A stretch of 38,302 nt of DNA from positions 1 through 38,302 of the forward strand of contig JAADHZ010000144.1 of NCBI GenBank assembly GCA_013151575.1, read 5' to 3'. Below the pieces are notes generated by a model, which was given only the letters and a program-made list of their open reading frames with translations, was not told the origin of the DNA and did no database searches. The DNA is from Gammaproteobacteria bacterium (lineage in GTDB: Bacteria > Pseudomonadota > Gammaproteobacteria > SZUA-152). This document shows positions 1,249-12,367 of this stretch, one piece after another (positions within the stretch are counted from its first letter, which is position 1; the number at the start of each line of letters is the position of its first letter). The translations under genes were made by a program, and so were the position numbers.

Positions 1249-3870
1249 CTAGGCAGACAAACCCTGTCGGGAAAAGCGGCCATTGCAGGGGAAAAAATGG
1301 TCGCTATTCAGCAGCAACAAAATCAACAACAGCAGTACTCCAAAACCACCGCCACCTGAAGAGGAGCCACCTGAAGAGGGGCCGCCTGAGGAGGAACCGC
1401 CACCTGAAGAGGAGCCGCCTGAGGAGGAACCGCCACCTGAAGAGGAGCCGCCTGAGGAGGAACCGCCACCTGAAGAGGAGCCACCGGAGCCACCACCACT
1501 GGAACCCGATATTGCCTGCACGCTGATGTCGTCAAAAAAGGCGGAGTCATTGAAACTGCCAACACCCAAACGTCCCACTGCAAACGTGGCGTCGGTGGCG
1601 CTCAGTAACAGGCTACCGTCAAAAGTAACGCTGATTTGATCGCCGTTGCGCACAAGTTCAATGGCGTGATAATCATTGTCATTCAACCAGTCTGTGTCTG
1701 TGGTGGCCTCAGCCAATTTCCTGTAACTGCCAGCTTCCACCTTGAGCAGCTGCGTGGCATATGCTTCATTGTTGAGACTGAGGAAGTAGTAGTTGTTCGC
1801 ATCCTGGTAACCAAATAGCAGGGCCATGTCGGCAAAACTATTGGTTGCCACGTCATCACCTAGTCGGGCATTGAGACTGAACACCACGTCACCGTAGACC
1901 CCGGGCAGCAGACTGTATTCGCCCAGTGACCTGTTGTCGGGGGCATCGAAACTTGAGGTGTTGAGGCTGTAGGCGTAGTCACCATCATCCTGCACAACGG
2001 TCCAGCGCGATGGCGTTTGGGGTTCAAAACCGGCGGCGTTACCGTCTTCAAAACCTTCGCTGGCTTTATTAACAAAGGTTACGCTGGTGGCCGTTGTCAT
2101 GGTGTTGGGCACTATAGCGCGGTCGGTAATACCATCAATGGTCAAAGTGTAGCTAAGGCCCTCACTGAGGCTGCTGACACCAAGCAGCACCACCTGATTG
2201 TTGGCCTCCAACACGGCACTGTTCACCATTATGGAAGGGGCGATGCTGTAGCGACGGGTATCTTGTGCCGACACCGCGTCCACCGATTCATTGAACACCA
2301 CCTGAACAATATCAGGTCCGAGGGTGAGTGCTGCGACCACTATCGGGGCAGCGGTGTCAGCAACAATAGTCAGTGTGGCGCCATCGCTAACCATGCTGCC
2401 GCCGGCATTGCTGATCTCGGTGTTAAACACCGCAGCGTTATCGGCCATATCGGAGGCGGTGAGGGTGTAACTGGCCAATGTGGCACCGGCAATGGCCATT
2501 CCATTTTTTCTCCATTGATAGACCAGATTTCCGGTTCCCGCCGCCAGCACATTAAAAGTCGCATCCTGTCCCTGGTCAACAGTCACTGCCTGCGGCTGAA
2601 CGACAATGCTCAGCGCCGCCGAGGCGTCCGCCAACTTGTAAATCAGCACGTTCTGGCGGGAATCGTTCACCAGCACGTAGGCATTTTCACGCGGACTGTA
2701 GCGAAAACGCCCGTAGGTGCCTGTCGGAGCGGGCTCCTGGGAGGGTGCGCTTAACGCAATCCAGTCTTTGGCATCCATATCAAGCGCATGAACAGCACCA
2801 CCACTCCAGACAACTATCCTGTCGATAACCGGATCATAATTGACGCCGGGACGATATTGCCTTCGCACCGTTCCCCCGTCCCGCCCCCAGCCTTTGACGA
2901 TAAACTCGCCACCCGTCGTATCCCAATACTGGGGGGTGTAATTCTGATTCCTGATGTCATACACGATAATCCCTTTATCCTGTGGGGTATCGATAGGCGG
3001 CATTCCGATAACAATCAGCAAACCGCGCTTCGTGTCCACGGTGATACCACGATCCAGCCAGACAGCGGTGGAATTTAATTTATCCCAGCGATTACTCGAC
3101 ACATCGTAGACAAACAGGCCATCCGGGCCCACAGAGTAAACTTTGTCGGATTCAGGGTCATAAGCCGCTGACGTAGGCGCCCAAACCGGAGGATGGATAG
3201 GCTTGCCATTGCCGTCAAATTCTGAATCAGGCGCCATGCTAATCCATTGTTTGTTATCAAAATCAAACGTCCAAGTATTATGGTCCACCCCGCCCTGAAA
3301 GCAGGACAATGCGCCTGCGGGGGTCGAAAAAAATCGGTCGATGGTGGAAATGTAGTCAATATTGTAATAGGTGTGACGGCTATTCGGATTACCATCCGCC
3401 AGCAAAGAAGGGCACGGCCAAGTTTCCGGGTCCATGGCAGTAGAGGGATCGGTAACCCGTCGCCACGAAAAATCCGTCAGGTCGAACGTATAAATTTCAT
3501 TCCCAAAATAGGCCGCGTGCCCCCCACCCCAAATGGCCAAACGATTCCGCTTGGAATCAAAAGCCGCACCGCTGTATAGGAAAATACCCCGACTATCCAA
3601 ATAGGCCGACCCCGCATCCGTAATATTCGAAAAAAACGCGCGGTTTGCCTCCACCTGACGCATTTCACTGTTGGGCACCTCGTACCAGGTATTCGGTGGA
3701 AGATTTTGGATAACGCTGTTTGGGGCTGCGCCAACCACAGCAAAAACCTGTGCAGAAGTGACGATCAGCGCACAAAAAAGGCTCAACAACATCAGCAAGT
3801 AGCGGAAAATGGGCGTAATAGTTGAAACAGTGGATAAACTCGAAGACTGGCTCACCTTTAACCTCGTCAT
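1249..3870 (-). CDS. Secreted multidomain protein: kelch/galactose-oxidase-like beta-propeller, Ig-like domains, ConA/LamG-like domain, Ser/Gly repeat linker and C-terminal hydrophobic helix
   Basis: 914-aa ORF (1249..3993); the internal start MTRLKVSQ at 3870 is followed by signal-like YLLMLLSLFCALIVTSAQVFA. Kelch-like AFDSKRNRLAIWGGGH; Ig-like VVQPQAVTVDQGQDATFNVLAAGTGNLVYQWRKNG; tail (SSSGGG)n then GFGVLLLLILLLL. Confidence 0.75.
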   Translation of the reverse strand: MTRLKVSQSSSLSTVSTITPIFRYLLMLLSLFCALIVTSAQVFAVVGAAPNSVIQNLPPNTWYEVPNSEMRQVEANRAFFSNITDAGSAYLDSRGIFLYSGAAFDSKRNRLAIWGGGHAAYFGNEIYTFDLTDFSWRRVTDPSTAMDPETWPCPSLLADGNPNSRHTYYNIDYISTIDRFFSTPAGALSCFQGGVDHNTWTFDFDNKQWISMAPDSEFDGNGKPIHPPVWAPTSAAYDPESDKVYSVGPDGLFVYDVSSNRWDKLNSTAVWLDRGITVDTKRGLLIVIGMPPIDTPQDKGIIVYDIRNQNYTPQYWDTTGGEFIVKGWGRDGGTVRRQYRPGVNYDPVIDRIVVWSGGAVHALDMDAKDWIALSAPSQEPAPTGTYGRFRYSPRENAYVLVNDSRQNVLIYKLADASAALSIVVQPQAVTVDQGQDATFNVLAAGTGNLVYQWRKNGMAIAGATLASYTLTASDMADNAAVFNTEISNAGGSMVSDGATLTIVADTAAPIVVAALTLGPDIVQVVFNESVDAVSAQDTRRYSIAPSIMVNSAVLEANNQVVLLGVSSLSEGLSYTLTIDGITDRAIVPNTMTTATSVTFVNKASEGFEDGNAAGFEPQTPSRWTVVQDDGDYAYSLNTSSFDAPDNRSLGEYSLLPGVYGDVVFSLNARLGDDVATNSFADMALLFGYQDANNYYFLSLNNEAYATQLLKVEAGSYRKLAEATTDTDWLNDNDYHAIELVRNGDQISVTFDGSLLLSATDATFAVGRLGVGSFNDSAFFDDISVQAISGSSGGGSGGSSSGGGSSSGGSSSGGGSSSGGSSSGGGSSSGGPSSGGSSSGGGGFGVLLLLILLLLNSDHFFPCNGRFSRQGLSA
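1348..1500. repeat. 33-bp tandem repeat (minisatellite) encoding Ser/Gly-rich linker
   Basis: Unit accgccacctgaagaggagccgcctgaggagga recurs at 1396, 1429 and (partly) 1462, with degenerate copies upstream; exact 33-bp period. Confidence 0.9.
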
Positions 3871-4189
3871 TAGCAAAATACTCAACTGGATACGATAGAC
3901 GTTTTCAAGGATAGAAATCGACTGAAAACTGCATGCGTTAACCCTCTGGCGAGTGGTTTTGGGACGTAGTATGCATTCTTCATTCAGGTACATGTTTGGC
4001 TATGCCCACAATTTTCGTAAAAAGATATAGATTAGGTTCATTTCTATGGCAAAGCATCCCTGGGGCACAATAACCCCTCCTCACACACACGTTTTACCGC
4101 CAAATTACGTTCCAAAAATCGAAATCAATCAAATAAAGTGCTTGAAATCGTTTATCGCATTATAAAATAATGAACTACCCTGCAGCACA

Positions 4190-4319: not shown

Positions 4320-4426
4320 ACGCCCCACCTATTTTTCATGCTCGGGTCAACCATCCCGTTATCAGTGCGTTGTTATTAGTGAACACAACATTCACAGATG
4401 CAACAACACAAGCAACGGAGTTTCCC

Positions 4427-4831
4427 ATGAAATACACCAAAATCTGTTACACCGGCCTGTGTGCCGCCCTGCTGGCTCTCCCGATGATCGCTAGCGCCAG
4501 CCCCGAACATAACGCGGGGAATCGACTGGATAATCGCGGTGACCGCATTGAAAACCGGTTGGACCTTCGCGGTGACCGCAGCGACCGACGTCTGGACAAC
4601 CGAGGCGATCGCATCAATGGCCGCCTGGACCGCAGGGCCGACCGTGCCGCCGCAGCCGGTATGGACGTCCGCGCCGCACGCCTGGATCGCCGGGGTGACC
4701 GCATCGACAGCCGACTGGATCGCCGGGGCGACAGAATCAATGCCCGACTGGACCGTCACGGCGGTCGCATCAACCATCGTCTGGGGCATCGCGGTGACCG
4801 TCTACAGAATCGCGTAAACCGCCGCCACTGA
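4427..4831 (+). CDS. Exported Arg/Asp-rich protein of 11-residue RLDxRGDRIxx repeats, function unknown
   Basis: ATG at 4427; signal peptide MKYTKICYTGLCAALLALPMIASASP; mature part is tandem RLDNRGDRIEN/RLDLRGDRSDR/RLDNRGDRING/RLDRRGDRIDS... Confidence 0.8.
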   Translation: MKYTKICYTGLCAALLALPMIASASPEHNAGNRLDNRGDRIENRLDLRGDRSDRRLDNRGDRINGRLDRRADRAAAAGMDVRAARLDRRGDRIDSRLDRRGDRINARLDRHGGRINHRLGHRGDRLQNRVNRRH

Positions 4832-4848: not shown

Positions 4849-6066
4849 TCACGAAGCGACAGGAATGAGGCGTAGCTCGCGGGTATCACCTTTTTTACGA
4901 CGCGGCGGCAGTCTGCTGCTTAACAACGCCATCACCTTTTCGGCTGTGGCGCGGTAGGCGGTGAGTTTTCCACCATAAATAGTGAGTACACAGGGTGTAT
5001 CAGTGCGGGCTTGATCGTTGTCGATATGCAACACCGTATCGCGTGTTTTTGCACCCAGGCCCCCGTCTCCTGCGGGCAATACCCGCAGCCCGGCGAAAGC
5101 CCGGCTCACGATGTTCTCACCCCCCCGATCCGGAAAATAATAGCTAAAAGTTTCCAGCAAATAGGCCTGTTCTTCCGGCAGGGGGTGGACCTCTCCAGGG
5201 TCGCCCTGATACCGGGTTTCGGTGGTACCCAGTAGCACCGAATCACCCGCTATTTTCTCCTGCCAGGGTATCGCGAACGTCGGGCGAGCATCACGGGGTG
5301 ACTCCAGATAATAGATTCCCTTTTCCAATTGGGCATCCAGCACCAAATGCGTGCCCTGTACCATGTCGAACGCCAGTGACACGGGTTCGGGGCTTACCCG
5401 TCCCAGCACCCGGTTCACCCATGGACCGGCGGCGTTGACCATGGCACGGGCCAGGCAGTGCCGCTCCTCCCCGTGACTGCGATAACGTATTTGGATGCGA
5501 TCACTGGCGATGGTTGCCTGCAATAGTTCTGCGTCCTCTTGCAGTTGCGCGCCCAGACCTTGCGCAGAGGCCATTACCGCCTGGGTCAAAGCGCGGTCAT
5601 CGGTTTGTGCGTCCCAATACTGGAAGACGGAGAGTAAGCCTTCGCGATTGAGCCCGTCCAGGCTATCCCACTGCCGACGAGGTAAACGATGAAAACGCAC
5701 ATCCTTGCCGCCACCGGCTAACATGGAATATAGGGCCAAGCCGGAAGCTATCGTGAACCGGTTTCTTGTGCTGTTTTTATAAATAGGAATATAAAATCGG
5801 CGCATGCGCACCAACTCCGGAGCCAGCTTCAGTAACAGGCTGCGCTCCCGCAAACATTCACGCACCAAATCGATTTGTCCGTGTTCGAGGTAACGCAGCC
5901 CACCATGAATCAGCTTGCTCGACCGGCTGGAGGTGGCGCAGGCCAGAGTTCCCTGCTCCAGCACCAACACCGAAAAACCGGCGGCCACTGCGGCCTGCGC
6001 CACGCCAACGCCGTGAATGCCGCCGCCCACCACAACCAAATCAAATTCGTTGCGCTCAATCCCCAT
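4849..6066 (-). CDS. FAD-dependent glycerol-3-phosphate dehydrogenase-like protein, short form
   Basis: N-terminal FAD motif DLVVVGGGIHGVGVAQAA; TSSRSSKLIHGGLRYLEHG; GTTETRYQGDP; IYGGKLTAYRATAEKVM. Only 405 aa. Confidence 0.85.
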   Translation of the reverse strand: MGIERNEFDLVVVGGGIHGVGVAQAAVAAGFSVLVLEQGTLACATSSRSSKLIHGGLRYLEHGQIDLVRECLRERSLLLKLAPELVRMRRFYIPIYKNSTRNRFTIASGLALYSMLAGGGKDVRFHRLPRRQWDSLDGLNREGLLSVFQYWDAQTDDRALTQAVMASAQGLGAQLQEDAELLQATIASDRIQIRYRSHGEERHCLARAMVNAAGPWVNRVLGRVSPEPVSLAFDMVQGTHLVLDAQLEKGIYYLESPRDARPTFAIPWQEKIAGDSVLLGTTETRYQGDPGEVHPLPEEQAYLLETFSYYFPDRGGENIVSRAFAGLRVLPAGDGGLGAKTRDTVLHIDNDQARTDTPCVLTIYGGKLTAYRATAEKVMALLSSRLPPRRKKGDTRELRLIPVAS

Positions 6067-6841
6067 CGCACGCCGCCTCTGCTAGTCGCGGATCCGCGAG
6101 CATGCCACCGATATCCCAGGTTTCGATGAAATGCGCACCCCGTTGCGCCCAGTGCAAAGCCAACGCCGGGTTCACAATATCGTACAGCGCCCAGCGCCAA
6201 GGGCCAGACCACAGCGCGCCATCGGTATCGGGTATCTTTTTGTAGTTACAAATCAACACCTCCGGTTGCAGTTGTTGCGCGGCCTGCTGTGCTTCGCTGC
6301 CCCATTCACGGATCACCCAGCCGATGGGGGGAATAGTATTTTTTTCGGTGCCCAATTTTTTCACTGCGGCCAATACCGCAAGGTCGAAGGAAATCAACAC
6401 ACAACGCGTGCAGTATTGCGCCAACTCCGCAACCATGCGCTGAGCCACGTGCTCAACACCAAAACACACCACAGTACGGCGTTTGATCTCCACAAAAGCC
6501 GTGGCTTGCGGCCAGCGGTCCAGTAGCTGCAACACATTTTTTAATGTAGGCACCGGCTCATCGTTAAAACGGTCACCAAAACGGCCTGGCTCACCCGCGT
6601 GCAGGGTGGACAATTGCGCCCAAGTGCTTTGATGAATGTCACCGGCGTGGCCGGTGGTGCGAGACAGTTCGCTGTCGTGAAACACCACGGGCACATTATC
6701 TTTGGTGAAGTGCACGTCAAACTCGAAATAGCGAGCCCCGGCCTGCAATGCAGCCAGCAGGCCCGCCAGGGTATTCTCCGGGTAACATTGGCTGTAACCA
6801 CGGTGGGCGATCAATTGCGGTACGGGTAACGCGTCATTCAT
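6056..6841 (-). CDS. Glycerophosphodiester phosphodiesterase
   Basis: LIAHRGYSQCYPENTLAG, FEFDVHFTKDNVPVVFHDSELSRTT: GDPD catalytic motifs. Overlaps the neighbouring genes at both ends. Confidence 0.9.
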   Translation of the reverse strand: MNDALPVPQLIAHRGYSQCYPENTLAGLLAALQAGARYFEFDVHFTKDNVPVVFHDSELSRTTGHAGDIHQSTWAQLSTLHAGEPGRFGDRFNDEPVPTLKNVLQLLDRWPQATAFVEIKRRTVVCFGVEHVAQRMVAELAQYCTRCVLISFDLAVLAAVKKLGTEKNTIPPIGWVIREWGSEAQQAAQQLQPEVLICNYKKIPDTDGALWSGPWRWALYDIVNPALALHWAQRGAHFIETWDIGGMLADPRLAEAACDGD

Positions 6842-8451
6842 TGTGACGATTCTCCTGATGGTTTTTCGATCATGTGGCTGCCCTCTGATTCGCCGGGATC
6901 AAACACCCCAAAACCCGTTGGAAGTTGAACGCCATTTTTTTGCGACAATTCTTGTGCCAGCGCCTGACACCAACGCCGGTAGCGCCCTTGCAGCTTCGGG
7001 TTTGGTTGAGGCTCGAAACCTTGCAAGGATAGTTCGCGCCAGCTCGCAGATTTTATCGCCCCTTGCGCAAATCGCGATGCGGCGAGTTGGCGCGCCAGCC
7101 CTCGGGCCGTCGCCTCGGGGCAGTGCGCCCGCAGTACCGGGAACCCGCTAAGGTTAGCCAAACGTTGGCACAAACCGTCCAGCACCGCCAACCCTCCGCT
7201 GACCACTATGCGCCGCACGGGTTGGGCTGGTTGTTGCGCCTGTGCTAACTGCCACAAATTAACCTGGACTAAAAACAGGATACTCTCCACCACCGCCACC
7301 AGTTTTTCGCCCGTCGTTGCCCTGCCCGTCCCGTCAATGTAGCGGGATGTAAAATCCGCCACCCAAAACGGCGAACCCAGGCCGGACACGCCGTTGAGGT
7401 AAAGTGGGATGTTGCTTGCGGTGGCCAACCAACGGGGTAGATTTTCCTCGGCCTGTTGGGGCGAAATCGCCAGCGCCTTTTGCTCTGCCAACAAGGCACT
7501 GCCGGCGCCGTTCACCGTGGCCTCGGCAACATAGGTGGCTGACTGCTCGTCGGCCCACACCACGCTGCGTAGCAGGCATCCGGGCATGGCGGTATTGTCG
7601 TGCGCCAGGGTGCGTTGCAGAAATCCGCCGGTACCGATATTCAGGTAGGCCGTGTCGGTTTGCGGCTCCCCGAAGGCGAACAACGCGGCGGACTGATCAC
7701 CCATACACACGGTGAGCGGCACTGCGCGGCCTGCGATGTTCCGATGCCCAAAACAATGGCGACTGGGCACGCAGCGGGGCAATGCAGCGGCGTCCAAACC
7801 GAACATCGCCAGCAGCTCGGGGGACCAGTCCCGCGTGCGCACATCCCACAGCAGGGTGCGCGAGGCATTGGACGGGTCCACCAACAGCGGCTTTTCCGTC
7901 AGTAGCCGGTATAGCAAAAAACTCGCCAGCGGCCCCCACGCAAGACGATGCTCGCGGTGGGCAACCTGCACTGAAGGGAGCTGTTCCAGGCACCAGCGCA
8001 GTTTGCTCACCCCAAAATGCGGAGTGGGCAGCAGGCCGGTGATGTGTTGAATGCGCGGGGTCTGCGCACCGAACGCAGACATCCAGCGTCGCGCACGCCG
8101 GTCCTGCCAGCTGATGACGGGGGACAACGCCTCCCCGGTACGACGGTCCCAGCACACCACGCTGGAACGCTGGGTGGCCAGGCCCATTGCTGTCACCCGG
8201 GCGGCCTGTTCGCCCAGCTGTGCCACGCAATCCGCCAGCGCCTGTTCCACCGATAACACCAGCTCGTCGGCATTCTGCTCCACCCGGTCCGGCGTGGGGT
8301 GTTGCAACTCCGGCTCCCGTTCGGCGCGCGCCAGCACCACACCGTGGGCGTCAAAGGCCATCACCCGGCTGGCATGACCACCCTGGTCGATCACGAGGTA
8401 AATCTCTCCGACGGTCACAAGCCACTCAGCATTCGCGGTTACCCGACACAT
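6838..8451 (-). CDS. FGGY-family carbohydrate kinase, glycerol-kinase-like
   Basis: VIDQGGHASRVMAFDAHG, ATQRSSVVCWDRRTGEALSPVISWQDRR, MGDQSAALFAFG, LNIGTGGF. 4-bp overlap with the GDPD gene. The start is uncertain; internal GTG codons before IDQGG are possible. Confidence 0.85.
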   Translation of the reverse strand: MCRVTANAEWLVTVGEIYLVIDQGGHASRVMAFDAHGVVLARAEREPELQHPTPDRVEQNADELVLSVEQALADCVAQLGEQAARVTAMGLATQRSSVVCWDRRTGEALSPVISWQDRRARRWMSAFGAQTPRIQHITGLLPTPHFGVSKLRWCLEQLPSVQVAHREHRLAWGPLASFLLYRLLTEKPLLVDPSNASRTLLWDVRTRDWSPELLAMFGLDAAALPRCVPSRHCFGHRNIAGRAVPLTVCMGDQSAALFAFGEPQTDTAYLNIGTGGFLQRTLAHDNTAMPGCLLRSVVWADEQSATYVAEATVNGAGSALLAEQKALAISPQQAEENLPRWLATASNIPLYLNGVSGLGSPFWVADFTSRYIDGTGRATTGEKLVAVVESILFLVQVNLWQLAQAQQPAQPVRRIVVSGGLAVLDGLCQRLANLSGFPVLRAHCPEATARGLARQLAASRFAQGAIKSASWRELSLQGFEPQPNPKLQGRYRRWCQALAQELSQKNGVQLPTGFGVFDPGESEGSHMIEKPSGESSQ

Positions 8452-9044: not shown

Positions 9045-10706
9045 TTATCCGACGCGATTGCGCTCGCCCGACAGGCGAGATACCCTTGACCATAATAAGG
9101 GAAACAGTAATAACCACAGCGGATTGGGGCTGCCACCGCCACCGCTGCCACCACTTCCACCACCACAGGTAGCACCGGTGTTGGTGGCAGTGACCGCGGT
9201 ATTGATAGCATCCAGCCAGATGCGGTCATCGTTCGCATTGATCGAAAAGTCCTTTTCGTAGCTCCATTGCAGCACATGCTCGTCATTATCCGAGATAACA
9301 ATTTGCTCCTGTACCCAGTCTTTCTGGCCGCTGATGGACTTTCTGAGCGCGCCATCCACGTAAAATCGACCGAAGTCGTAGCGCGGCTCACTGGAAGCCC
9401 TCCAGCGGAAGGTAAGAGTGGCTGGGCCGGTGATGTAGGTGACGAGCGTGGACGTTTCATTGTGGTTGATGGTGCCGCTGCTCAGGGCCGTGCCATTGAC
9501 GTTGCCAGCGCGGCAAACGGGGTTCCAGTTGGCATCGTCGCCGCTAAACCACTCCAGGCCATCGGTGTCGTCCAGTGCTGCACCGTCAATGCGGCTGAGG
9601 CCGACACCAGTGAGGGTGGAGCTGCGGGTTTCCTGGGTGTCCAACGTGATGACCACAGAGCCACCGTGCTGGACGGCGCTGTCAGGTTGGAATTTCACGG
9701 TGATGGTGCAGTTATCGGAATCAGCGATGATGACGCCGGTGCAGGTCTCATTGATGATGCTGAAACTGCTGCTGCCGCTGAGGGTCAGCGACGCCAGGGA
9801 AATATCCGCACCGGTGTTGTTCGCCAGCTCCAGTACCTCCTGCGTCATATGGCCGATGCCCTGAGAACCGAATGTCTGCGTCGGTGTCAGCGCGACGGAG
9901 GTCGTGTCGCTGATCCACCGAGTATAGCCGGCCACCCGGGCGTAAACGCCGGGGAAACCCGGCGACGCGCAACCTATGTCGAAGCTGGTGATGCCAGTTT
10001 GATACCAGGTACCCTCATCCTGGTAGACCAGGGGGCCACCACTATCACCGGAACAGGAGTCCTTCATCAGGGCGGTGGCGCAGAGCATGTTGTCGGTGAG
10101 GGTGTTGTCGTAGGCGGCGTTGCAACTGCTGAAGTCTGCTAATGTCAGACCGACGTGCTGTAACAGGTCGGGAAAATTGTATGGCAGGTTGTTATCGTAG
10201 GCGGTTGCCCCCCAGCCCAAGGTGGTAAGCGGATCACCCACCGACAGAGTGTCCATCAGCGCGTTGTCGGCCAGTGTCAGCGGAGTGTTAAGCGAAGGTG
10301 CCGCCAGGTGCAGCAGGGCGAGGTCATTGTCTTTATTGGCGTTATTGTAGGCGGGGTGTACGTATACCCCGGAAACCGCGATACGCTCCGACACAGAAAT
10401 GTCCCGCAGGTCTTCGATACCCACCGCCACGTCGATGTTGTTGGCGGCAAGTGTGTCCACACAATGGGCCGCTGTCAGCACCCAGCGTGGCTGGATCAGG
10501 CTGCCCCCGCAGAATAGCGTTCCTGGCACGGAGGCGATGAACCCTGGCCGCAACAGGGCCGCCGCCCAGGGGTAATCGCCCTTCAGGGCTGAGCTGCCAC
10601 CGATGATACGGGGGCTGACGGTGGGAGTGTCGGCGCTGGCCGATGTGGCGAACAAACTGGCGGCCGCGAAGGCAATAATAACGGTACAAAGTAAAAACGG
10701 TTTCAT
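9045..10706 (-). CDS. Trypsin-like (S1) serine protease with C-terminal beta-rich domain and GlyGly-CTERM sorting tail
   Basis: ATG at 10706 with signal peptide MKPFLLCTVIIAFAAASLFATSASA; activation site PR|IIGG; triad TAAHC, DNDLALL, GDSGGP; C-term GGGSGGSGGGGSPNPLWLLLFPLLWSRVSRLSGERNRVG. Confidence 0.92.
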   Translation of the reverse strand: MKPFLLCTVIIAFAAASLFATSASADTPTVSPRIIGGSSALKGDYPWAAALLRPGFIASVPGTLFCGGSLIQPRWVLTAAHCVDTLAANNIDVAVGIEDLRDISVSERIAVSGVYVHPAYNNANKDNDLALLHLAAPSLNTPLTLADNALMDTLSVGDPLTTLGWGATAYDNNLPYNFPDLLQHVGLTLADFSSCNAAYDNTLTDNMLCATALMKDSCSGDSGGPLVYQDEGTWYQTGITSFDIGCASPGFPGVYARVAGYTRWISDTTSVALTPTQTFGSQGIGHMTQEVLELANNTGADISLASLTLSGSSSFSIINETCTGVIIADSDNCTITVKFQPDSAVQHGGSVVITLDTQETRSSTLTGVGLSRIDGAALDDTDGLEWFSGDDANWNPVCRAGNVNGTALSSGTINHNETSTLVTYITGPATLTFRWRASSEPRYDFGRFYVDGALRKSISGQKDWVQEQIVISDNDEHVLQWSYEKDFSINANDDRIWLDAINTAVTATNTGATCGGGSGGSGGGGSPNPLWLLLFPLLWSRVSRLSGERNRVG

Positions 10707-10801
10707 CGGTTTCTCTGTGGCGAGGTTTTCTGCGGGAGGAGTTCCCACGCCAGACCATTCTACCTCATTAATAACCTGGGTGGCTGTGCGCCAATAGGCC
10801 A

Positions 10802-12367
10802 TCAATGACGGAAATGGCGCATGCCGGTGAAGACCATGGCGATGCCGTGCTCGTCGGCGGCGGCGATGACTTCGTTGTCACGCAGGGAGCCGCCGGGCTG
10901 AATGACGGCGCGGATGCCCACTTCGGCGGCACTGTCCAGGCCGTCGCGGAATGGGAAAAAGGCGTCGCTGGCCATCACCGAACCTTTCACTTCCAACCCG
11001 GCATCGGCAGCCTTGATGGCGGCGATGCGCGCGCTGTACACGCGGCTCATCTGCCCAGCGCCTACGCCGATGGTTTTTCCATCGCGGCCGTACACAATGG
11101 CGTTGGATTTGACGAATTTAGCCACCTGCCAGGTGAACAATAGGTCGCGCAGTTGCTGCTCGCTGGGCGCTTGCTGGGTCACTATTTTCAGTTGGTCAGC
11201 GCCGACCATGCCTAAATCTCGGTCCTGTACCAACAAGCCGCCGTTAACGCGTTTGTAGTCCAGCCCGGCAAAACGCTTGTTGCCCCACTGGCCGCATTCC
11301 AGCACCCGCACGTTTTTCTTTTCTGCCAGCACGGCCTTGGCGCGCTCGCCCACACTAGGGGCGATGATCACTTCCACAAACTGGCGGTCGATAATGGCGC
11401 GGGCGGTGTCGGCGTCCAGCGGCCGGTTGAAGGCGATGATGCCGCCGAAGGCGGAGGTGGGGTCGGTCTGGTAGGCGTGGTTGTAGGCGTCGAGGATGTT
11501 GTCGGCCAGCGCCACGCCGCAGGGGTTGGCGTGTTTAACGATGACGCAGGCTGGGGCCTCGAACTGCTTGACGCATTCCAGTGCGGAATCCGTGTCGGCA
11601 ATATTGTTGAACGACAACTCCTTGCCTTGTTGCTGCACGCTGGTGGCGATGCAGGCCTCGGCTGGGCTTTCCTCCACATAAAACGCCGCTTTTTGATGCG
11701 GGTTTTCACCGTAGCGCATTTCTTGCACTTTGATGAACTGGGCGTTGTGGGTGCGAGGGAAGTCGCTGCGGCTGCCGTCCAATTGGGTGGCGCCAAGGTA
11801 GTTGGCGATGGCGCCGTCGTAGTGTGCGGTGTGTTCAAAGGTTTTGACGGCCAGCAAGTAGCGGGTGGTTTCACTGACGGCGCCGTTGTTGGCTGTCATC
11901 TCTGCCAGCACGTCTGCGTAGTTGTTGGCATCCACCACCACAGTTACTGCCGCGTGGTTTTTGGCGGCGGCGCGCAGCATCGTGGGGCCGCCAATGTCGA
12001 TGTTTTCGATGGCCAAATTCAGGTCACAATCATCACGGACGATGGTTTGCTCAAAGGGGTAGAGGTTCACCACCACCAGGTCGATGGGCTGGATGCCGTG
12101 CTCGGCCATCACCGCGTCATCGGTGCCGCGCCGCCCCAGCAGGCCCCCGTGGATTTTCGGGTGCAGGGTTTTGACACGGCCGTCCATCATTTCTGGGAAG
12201 CCGGTGTAGTCGGACACCTCGGTGACTTCCACGCCATTTTCCGCCAGCAGCTTTGCAGTGCCGCCGGTGCTGAGTATTTCCACTCCCAGGGCTTTGAGTT
12301 CCCGGCTGAAATCGAGGATGCCGCTTTTGTCGGAAACACTGATGAGTGCGCGTTTGATGGCTGTCAT
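10802..12367 (-). CDS. purH: Bifunctional AICAR formyltransferase / IMP cyclohydrolase
   Basis: 521 aa; [74 protein letters not shown]. Confidence 0.97.

Follow-up and report, generated by a model that had tools for sequence, protein, structure and literature searches.

An exported hendecad-repeat protein as a candidate effector of an ECF-sigma envelope-stress regulon

Introduction

Spy, CpxP and other proteins of the LTXXQ family (PF07813) are small, exported and rich in helical hairpins, and are outputs of stress regulons under the control of the Cpx two-component system. Operons of the RpoE–RseA type consist of an ECF sigma factor followed by a single-TM protein, are transcribed from an autoregulated promoter and have exported targets. 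An 11-residue helical period is found in the exchangeable apolipoproteins (PF01442) and in other amphipathic 11-mer helices, including those of LEA group 3 proteins and synuclein. Antiparallel helical hairpins occur in FadA, beta'MtbSI and the PspA/Vipp1 core.

The exported repeat protein described here is encoded in the window, by which we mean the whole 38,302-nucleotide stretch of gammaproteobacterial DNA that was analysed (contig JAADHZ010000144.1 of assembly GCA_013151575.1), and it shares some properties with each of these systems. Like Spy and CpxP, it is small, exported, predicted to form a helical hairpin and probably an output of a stress regulon; unlike them, it is built of hendecad repeats and is linked to an ECF sigma factor instead of the Cpx system. 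Membership of the LTXXQ family was rejected on sequence, as the PF07813 profile matched neither the repeat protein (P0001) nor any of 33 family members. The associated sigma operon has the layout of RpoE–RseA-type operons, but its sigma factor is of the PRK09047 type and is accompanied by DUF3619 and DUF3106 proteins, and its promoter is GTCAACC-N15-CGTT. The apolipoprotein-type helices have the same period; in the repeat protein, however, the charge stripes run along opposite flanks instead of being symmetrical, and Gly lies within the hydrophobic stripe. An apolipoprotein A1/A4/E domain was rejected, the score of 17.7 bits falling below the curated PF01442 cut-off of 90 bits. FadA, beta'MtbSI and the PspA/Vipp1 core resemble the predicted model in overall shape and were the top Foldseek entries, but no match to the PDB reached E ≤ 0.001, the TM-scores of the top entries were 0.3–0.5 and there is no sequence relation.

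Sequence searches of Pfam, NCBIfam and the PDB gave no assignment, returning only sub-threshold apolipoprotein-like matches, and the open-licence literature in PMC held nothing relevant on the repeat, or on its promoter in papers on ECF factors. The first-pass annotation's description of an exported, helical, repeat-built protein outside any characterised family is borne out by profile and literature searches, by AlphaFold2 and by the signal peptide. While ECF sigma regulons are known, one combining a GTCAACC-N15-CGTT promoter with repeat-protein outputs was not found described in the open-licence PMC literature. What began as an orphan, low-complexity open reading frame (ORF) can now be placed in a defined family, with a fold predicted for it, a promoter, a regulon and a testable role.

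The repeat gene and its product

The gene lies at positions 4427–4831 on the + strand and encodes a protein of 134 amino acids made of RLDxRGDRIxx hendecads. A Shine–Dalgarno sequence, CGGAG (4416–4420, +), is separated by a 6-nt spacer from the ATG at 4427. The signal peptide MKYTKICYTGLCAALLALPMIASA (4427–4498, +) is probably cleaved after ASA, and the resulting mature chain of 110 amino acids contains 32 Arg, 17 Asp and 2 Glu, giving a net charge of +13. It has no Lys and no Cys, as had been noted at first pass, and the ORF translates exactly into the signal peptide and repeat array claimed there, with RLDxRGDRIxx units beginning at residues 33, 44, 55, 66, 85, 96, 107 and 118. The 33-bp DNA period that was also reported holds for part of the array only: TRF detects it at 4682–4752 (score 93), and not in the remainder because synonymous codons have diverged between units. 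Despite this divergence, the 11-residue period is plain and intact in the protein.

Downstream of the repeat gene, and convergent with it, is a glycerol metabolism cluster (4849–8451, −) that by sequence encodes glycerol-3-phosphate dehydrogenase, glycerophosphodiester phosphodiesterase and glycerol kinase; it has no apparent link to the repeat protein. Elsewhere in the window are genes for a large exported beta-propeller/Ig-like protein with a Ser/Gly linker and a C-terminal hydrophobic segment (1249–3993, −) and for a trypsin-like protease with a Gly-rich linker and a hydrophobic C-terminus (9045–10805, −), both of which resemble GlyGly-CTERM sorting substrates.

A conserved promoter

Inspection of the gene neighbourhood, a step proposed at first pass, revealed an ECF-type promoter and linkage to an ECF sigma gene, both of which had been missed. 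The −35-like element GTCAACC (4346–4352, +) is exact in the gene's own genome and is preceded here by G; the −10-like element of the same promoter, GCGTT (4367–4371, +), lies 55 nt before the start codon. The upstream sequences of relatives have TGTCAACC-N14-GCGTT in common. The gene's own 2.48-Mb genome contains three exact GTCAACC-N15-CGTT sites: one precedes the repeat gene, and two on contig C80 precede an ECF sigma operon and a DUF4382 lipoprotein gene, respectively, so that the repeat gene and a sigma operon share a promoter within one genome. Approximately 1.2 sites are expected by chance (11 fixed bases, both strands) and the number of sites by itself therefore says little; both of the sites on C80 are correctly placed.

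The family of homologues is termed RLD below. The 41 family loci (588 kb, both strands) contain 34 exact copies of GTCAAC[CG]-N15-CGTT, every one of them located 61–136 bp upstream of an RLD gene and none elsewhere; the promoter thus precedes 34 of the 41 members. Across 185 genomes of the class, an extended promoter pattern finds approximately 50 sites, versus approximately 10 for a reversed control. Scans for sigma-70 promoters and terminators gave nothing above chance, and a scan against Rfam gave nothing.

The ECF sigma operon

The likely cognate sigma operon in the gene's own genome is on the − strand of contig C80 (G000:C80; L107 9668–12657) and encodes, in order, the ECF sigma factor, a DUF3619 protein, a small LELLEFLG-type protein, a DUF3106 protein and an outer-membrane-type protein of 295 amino acids; the DUF4382 lipoprotein gene that comes after it is separately promoted. 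The sigma factor matches NF006550/PRK09047 at 219.8 bits (cut-off 173), and the DUF3619 and DUF3106 proteins were assigned by Pfam. The DUF3619 protein, the presumed anti-sigma factor, has a single TM segment and an acidic periplasmic tail.

Data on linkage cover 39 homologous loci; in 23 of them sigma is encoded on the same strand as RLD, starting 38–229 bp downstream of it, and at most of these linked loci DUF3619 and DUF3106 come after sigma. The promoter is retained at 12 of the 16 loci where sigma is not nearby. Sixteen of the 185 class genomes are strong RLD carriers (E < 1e-15) and all have sigma, which is full-length and over the cut-off in 13 and truncated or partial beside the RLD gene in three. 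Full-length sigma is present in 13/16 carriers versus 28/169 other genomes (Fisher p = 2e-7, in a sample where related genomes are non-independent). Given the linkage in relatives and the promoter in the window, the window copy is a detached member of the operon that has kept its promoter, and the repeat gene very probably belongs to the regulon of the PRK09047-type sigma factor.

No paper mentioning DUF3619, DUF3106 or PRK09047 was found in the open-licence PMC literature, where DUF4382 appears only in a paper on archaeal glycoproteomics. The PRK09047–DUF3619–DUF3106 system gains a likely promoter and a small list of targets (exported repeat proteins, DUF4382 lipoproteins and an outer-membrane-type protein), and its signal and function become testable in cultured carriers. 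At one locus (L143, G169:C115) RLD-type repeats and sigma region 4 are fused in a single open frame, probably through deletion between neighbours or misassembly.

Other genes under the promoter

When genomes have the sigma gene but lack an RLD gene, the motif is usually found just upstream of sigma (for example, in G097, G083, G187, G059 and G148). Some of the genomes lacking RLD have another exported gene between promoter and sigma; in G141, G061 and G128 the products are highly charged repeat or helical proteins. This slot is occupied by an EF-hand protein with RREDVRD heptads in G141 (L138), by a pair of RRD-repeat proteins in G061 (L140), where either gene has a motif to itself, by a helical Arg/Glu-rich protein in G128 (L170; the motif has one mismatch) and by a Gln/Thr-rich exported protein in G147. 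At sites unlinked to sigma, the motif lies ahead of DUF4382 lipoprotein genes in five further genomes; in G058 the motif precedes an outer-membrane-type protein, and in G206 (L152) and G144 (L160), from two different genera, it precedes Gly-rich exported proteins with GxGxAxG repeats. A further point of likeness to Spy and CpxP is found in G141, where an unlinked motif precedes a 122-amino-acid LTXXQ-like protein (PF07813 E = 0.0024, below the Pfam cut-off). Exported proteins and lipoproteins as targets give the regulon the profile of an envelope-stress response.

It might be speculated that the promoter-proximal slot is filled by unrelated exported repeat proteins (RLDxRGDRI, RREDVRD, RRD) in which a charge pattern is selected and not a sequence, and that hairpins with cationic and anionic edges assemble into a protective periplasmic layer. 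We regard this as rather doubtful; if true, such slot-filling proteins would be a new class of envelope-stress output.

In one genome of the window's genus (L122, G011:C84), in which no RLD gene was detected, the promoter occurs a third time, ahead of a gene for a 486-amino-acid exported protein whose sequence resembles 5′-nucleotidase-type metallophosphoesterases.

A predicted helical hairpin with a nearly invariant hinge

One irregular unit interrupts the array, RLDRRADRAAAAGMDVRAA (4622–4678, +). It had been recorded at first pass, where its significance as the most informative part of the family was missed. The distance from RLD to RLD across this stretch is 19 residues in nearly all members, and the number of regular units in each arm varies. 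The hinge follows the consensus RLDRRADRAAxxGxDxLAx, and 35 of the 37 hinges scored have Gly at position 13.

AlphaFold2, supplied with an alignment of 33 sequences, predicts an N-terminal helical arm at residues 26–76 (4502–4654, +), a turn at residues 77–79 that includes Gly78 (4655–4663, +) and a C-terminal helical arm at residues 80–133 (4664–4825, +). From residue 51 to 110 the block pLDDT is 93–95, the pTM is only 0.58, and AlphaFold2 models of regular repeats may be over-confident. For a member with two hinges (L040), four helices are predicted, with breaks at both hinges and at the linker.

Two sequence tests that are independent of the model point the same way. The two arms that flank a hinge correlate in length (r = 0.74, n = 35), and in 30 of the 35 members they differ by no more than 10 residues, whereas 10,000 shuffles gave 15.2 such members on average and never more than 24; two truncated or tandem members were left out, and these statistics ignore sequence relatedness. 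In addition, with the centre of the turn at 78.5, every Leu-2 of one arm is opposite Gly-6 (or Ala71) of the other, pairing L34 with G123, L45 with G112, L56 with G101 and L67 with G90, together with the reverse set; it is the fixed 19-residue length of the hinge that sets this register. On the model and these two tests, the protein is likely to fold as an antiparallel helical hairpin, in place of the one long helix suggested at first pass, with the irregular unit as its turn. A Leu-opposite-Gly hendecad hairpin with segregated charges would be an unusual structural design rule, and one that a structure could check. A role as a secreted RGD adhesin binding integrins was rejected, because AlphaFold2 places all RGD triplets in helices and none in an exposed flexible loop.

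Proposed role in the envelope

We propose that the repeat protein is a periplasmic effector of an uncharacterised ECF-sigma envelope-stress regulon, acting in the manner of Spy and CpxP from outside their family; we would give this reading a probability of roughly 0.62. An envelope signal would inactivate the membrane-anchored DUF3619 protein, and the freed PRK09047-type sigma factor would then transcribe its own operon, the DUF4382 lipoprotein gene and the repeat gene from GTCAACC-N15-CGTT promoters. The exported product would fold into the predicted antiparallel hairpin of approximately 50 residues per arm, held together by the Leu-opposite-Gly hendecad interface with its register set by the 19-residue hinge, and this fold would leave an Arg-rich edge and an Asp-rich edge. 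When abundant, the hairpin may act as proteins of the Spy/CpxP type do, shielding or binding unfolded proteins or anionic polymers of the envelope. A protective effector is somewhat favoured over a signalling component, but any specific activity, be it as a holdase, in binding LPS or a polyanion, or in assembly, can be put forward only tentatively.

The charge pattern bears on a related proposal, according to which the protein primarily binds or crosslinks polyanions or envelope material: the Arg edge would be the site for LPS phosphates, nucleic acid or polyphosphate, while the Asp edge would take divalent cations or a neighbouring hairpin's Arg edge, giving sheets or fibres. In a helix with 11 residues per three turns, the residues fall into the stripes L2/G6/I9, R1/R5/R8 and D3/D7/x10. 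In a hairpin packed on L/G/I, both Arg stripes would come to lie on one edge and both Asp stripes on the other, an arrangement that suggests side-by-side assembly or counter-ion binding; by our own geometric reasoning, a simple antiparallel pair would have like-charged flanks facing each other and would need counter-ions or a higher assembly. Net charge is positive in every RLD member, averaging +2.0 per unit in the C arm and +0.08 in the N arm. A chain of net charge +13 with an Arg-rich edge may bind polyanions, as the first-pass annotation suggested, but composition alone is weak evidence, and as a full account of the protein this proposal is clearly the less probable one.

Alternatively, the hairpin could be a signalling component: as a feedback regulator in the periplasm it would bind the DUF3619 protein's periplasmic portion and reset or tune sigma, as CpxP or CnrX does. 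Consistent with this, RLD is the first gene of an autoregulated sigma operon in the 23 linked loci, and the acidic tail of DUF3619 would complement a basic C arm. Against it, in most genomes the sigma operon works without RLD, and in the window's genus RLD has moved off the operon; the presence of unrelated exported proteins in the same slot elsewhere also suits an output better than an essential part of a sensor. We consider such a regulator unlikely.

More improbable still is a disordered protectant of the LEA kind, folding only when it dries out or meets a membrane, by analogy with the 11-mer families of LEA group 3, synuclein and the apolipoproteins. The hendecad period with its central Gly and the weak PF01442 matches that 30 of 33 RLD members show below threshold would fit, but no LEA family was matched, the hydrophobic stripe is narrow, and the matched arm lengths and invariant hinge register imply a specific fold.

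The first-pass annotation envisaged a rod of intramolecular salt bridges, that is, a single alpha-helix (SAH) stabilised by pairs at i,i+4. High helical propensity and charge content would favour it, but the excess of opposite charges expected of an SAH is absent: there is one opposite i,i+4 pair versus 10.7 in shuffles (z −3.7), a depletion of approximately tenfold, and 28 like-charged pairs versus 11.8 (z +6.2); the family as a whole has 193 opposite versus 1601 same-charge pairs. With the charges arranged in like-charged stripes, any salt bridges would lie between helices or molecules, and with AlphaFold2 predicting a hairpin the rod has very little left in its favour.

Conservation and distribution of the family

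That the gene is a spurious low-complexity ORF is refuted by conservation: a 137-amino-acid antisense ORF overlaps it, as is common in repetitive GC-rich DNA, but the antisense frames hold stops in homologues, the gene itself has full-length homologues, and the promoter and the operon are conserved. Related genomes encode homologues that are 75–77% identical across all 134 residues, and comparison with the closest homologue of intact length (L032) gives dN and dS of approximately 0.16 and 1.00, pointing to purifying selection. On this comparative evidence, 4427–4831 is a real gene.

Of 96 related genomes, 14 carry an RLD homologue, and genome_contigs yielded 46 homologous loci. Most of these homologues are gammaproteobacterial. 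Other members come from records assigned to Alphaproteobacteria, Mariprofundus, Desulfobulbaceae, Desulfocapsa, Nitrospinaceae, Nitrospirae, Myxococcales and Binatia; most of the carrying records are MAGs, in which single odd taxon labels may reflect mis-binning. By contrast, two carriers, Sedimenticola selenatireducens BK-1 and Solimonas sp. SE-A11, are named strains in which the RLD gene adjoins the sigma gene, and the CTD079 carrier is represented by a complete chromosome. Overall, the family extends over many Proteobacteria and reaches a few other phyla, and the N-terminal hydrophobic segment is conserved throughout. Homologues are therefore numerous and none leads to a characterised family, in keeping with the first-pass view. 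Of the 41 genomes with full-length sigma, 28 lack the RLD gene, as do several genomes of the window's genus that are more than 95% complete; RLD thus behaves as an accessory gene. A plasmid search gave no match, and viral contigs gave pattern matches only, none of which was confirmed; there is accordingly no sign of mobile or phage origin.

Several loci depart from the usual arrangement. One homologue (L007/L059, G008:C203) is split over two frames near the hinge, through a frameshift or an assembly error. L040, L056, L061 and L009 each encode a protein with two tandem copies of the entire arm–hinge–arm array. In four Chromatiales-type genomes (L045, L048, L055 and L065), an unlinked RLD gene lies beside a large ribonucleotide-reductase-like gene on the opposite strand, which constitutes a second conserved neighbourhood of RLD genes.
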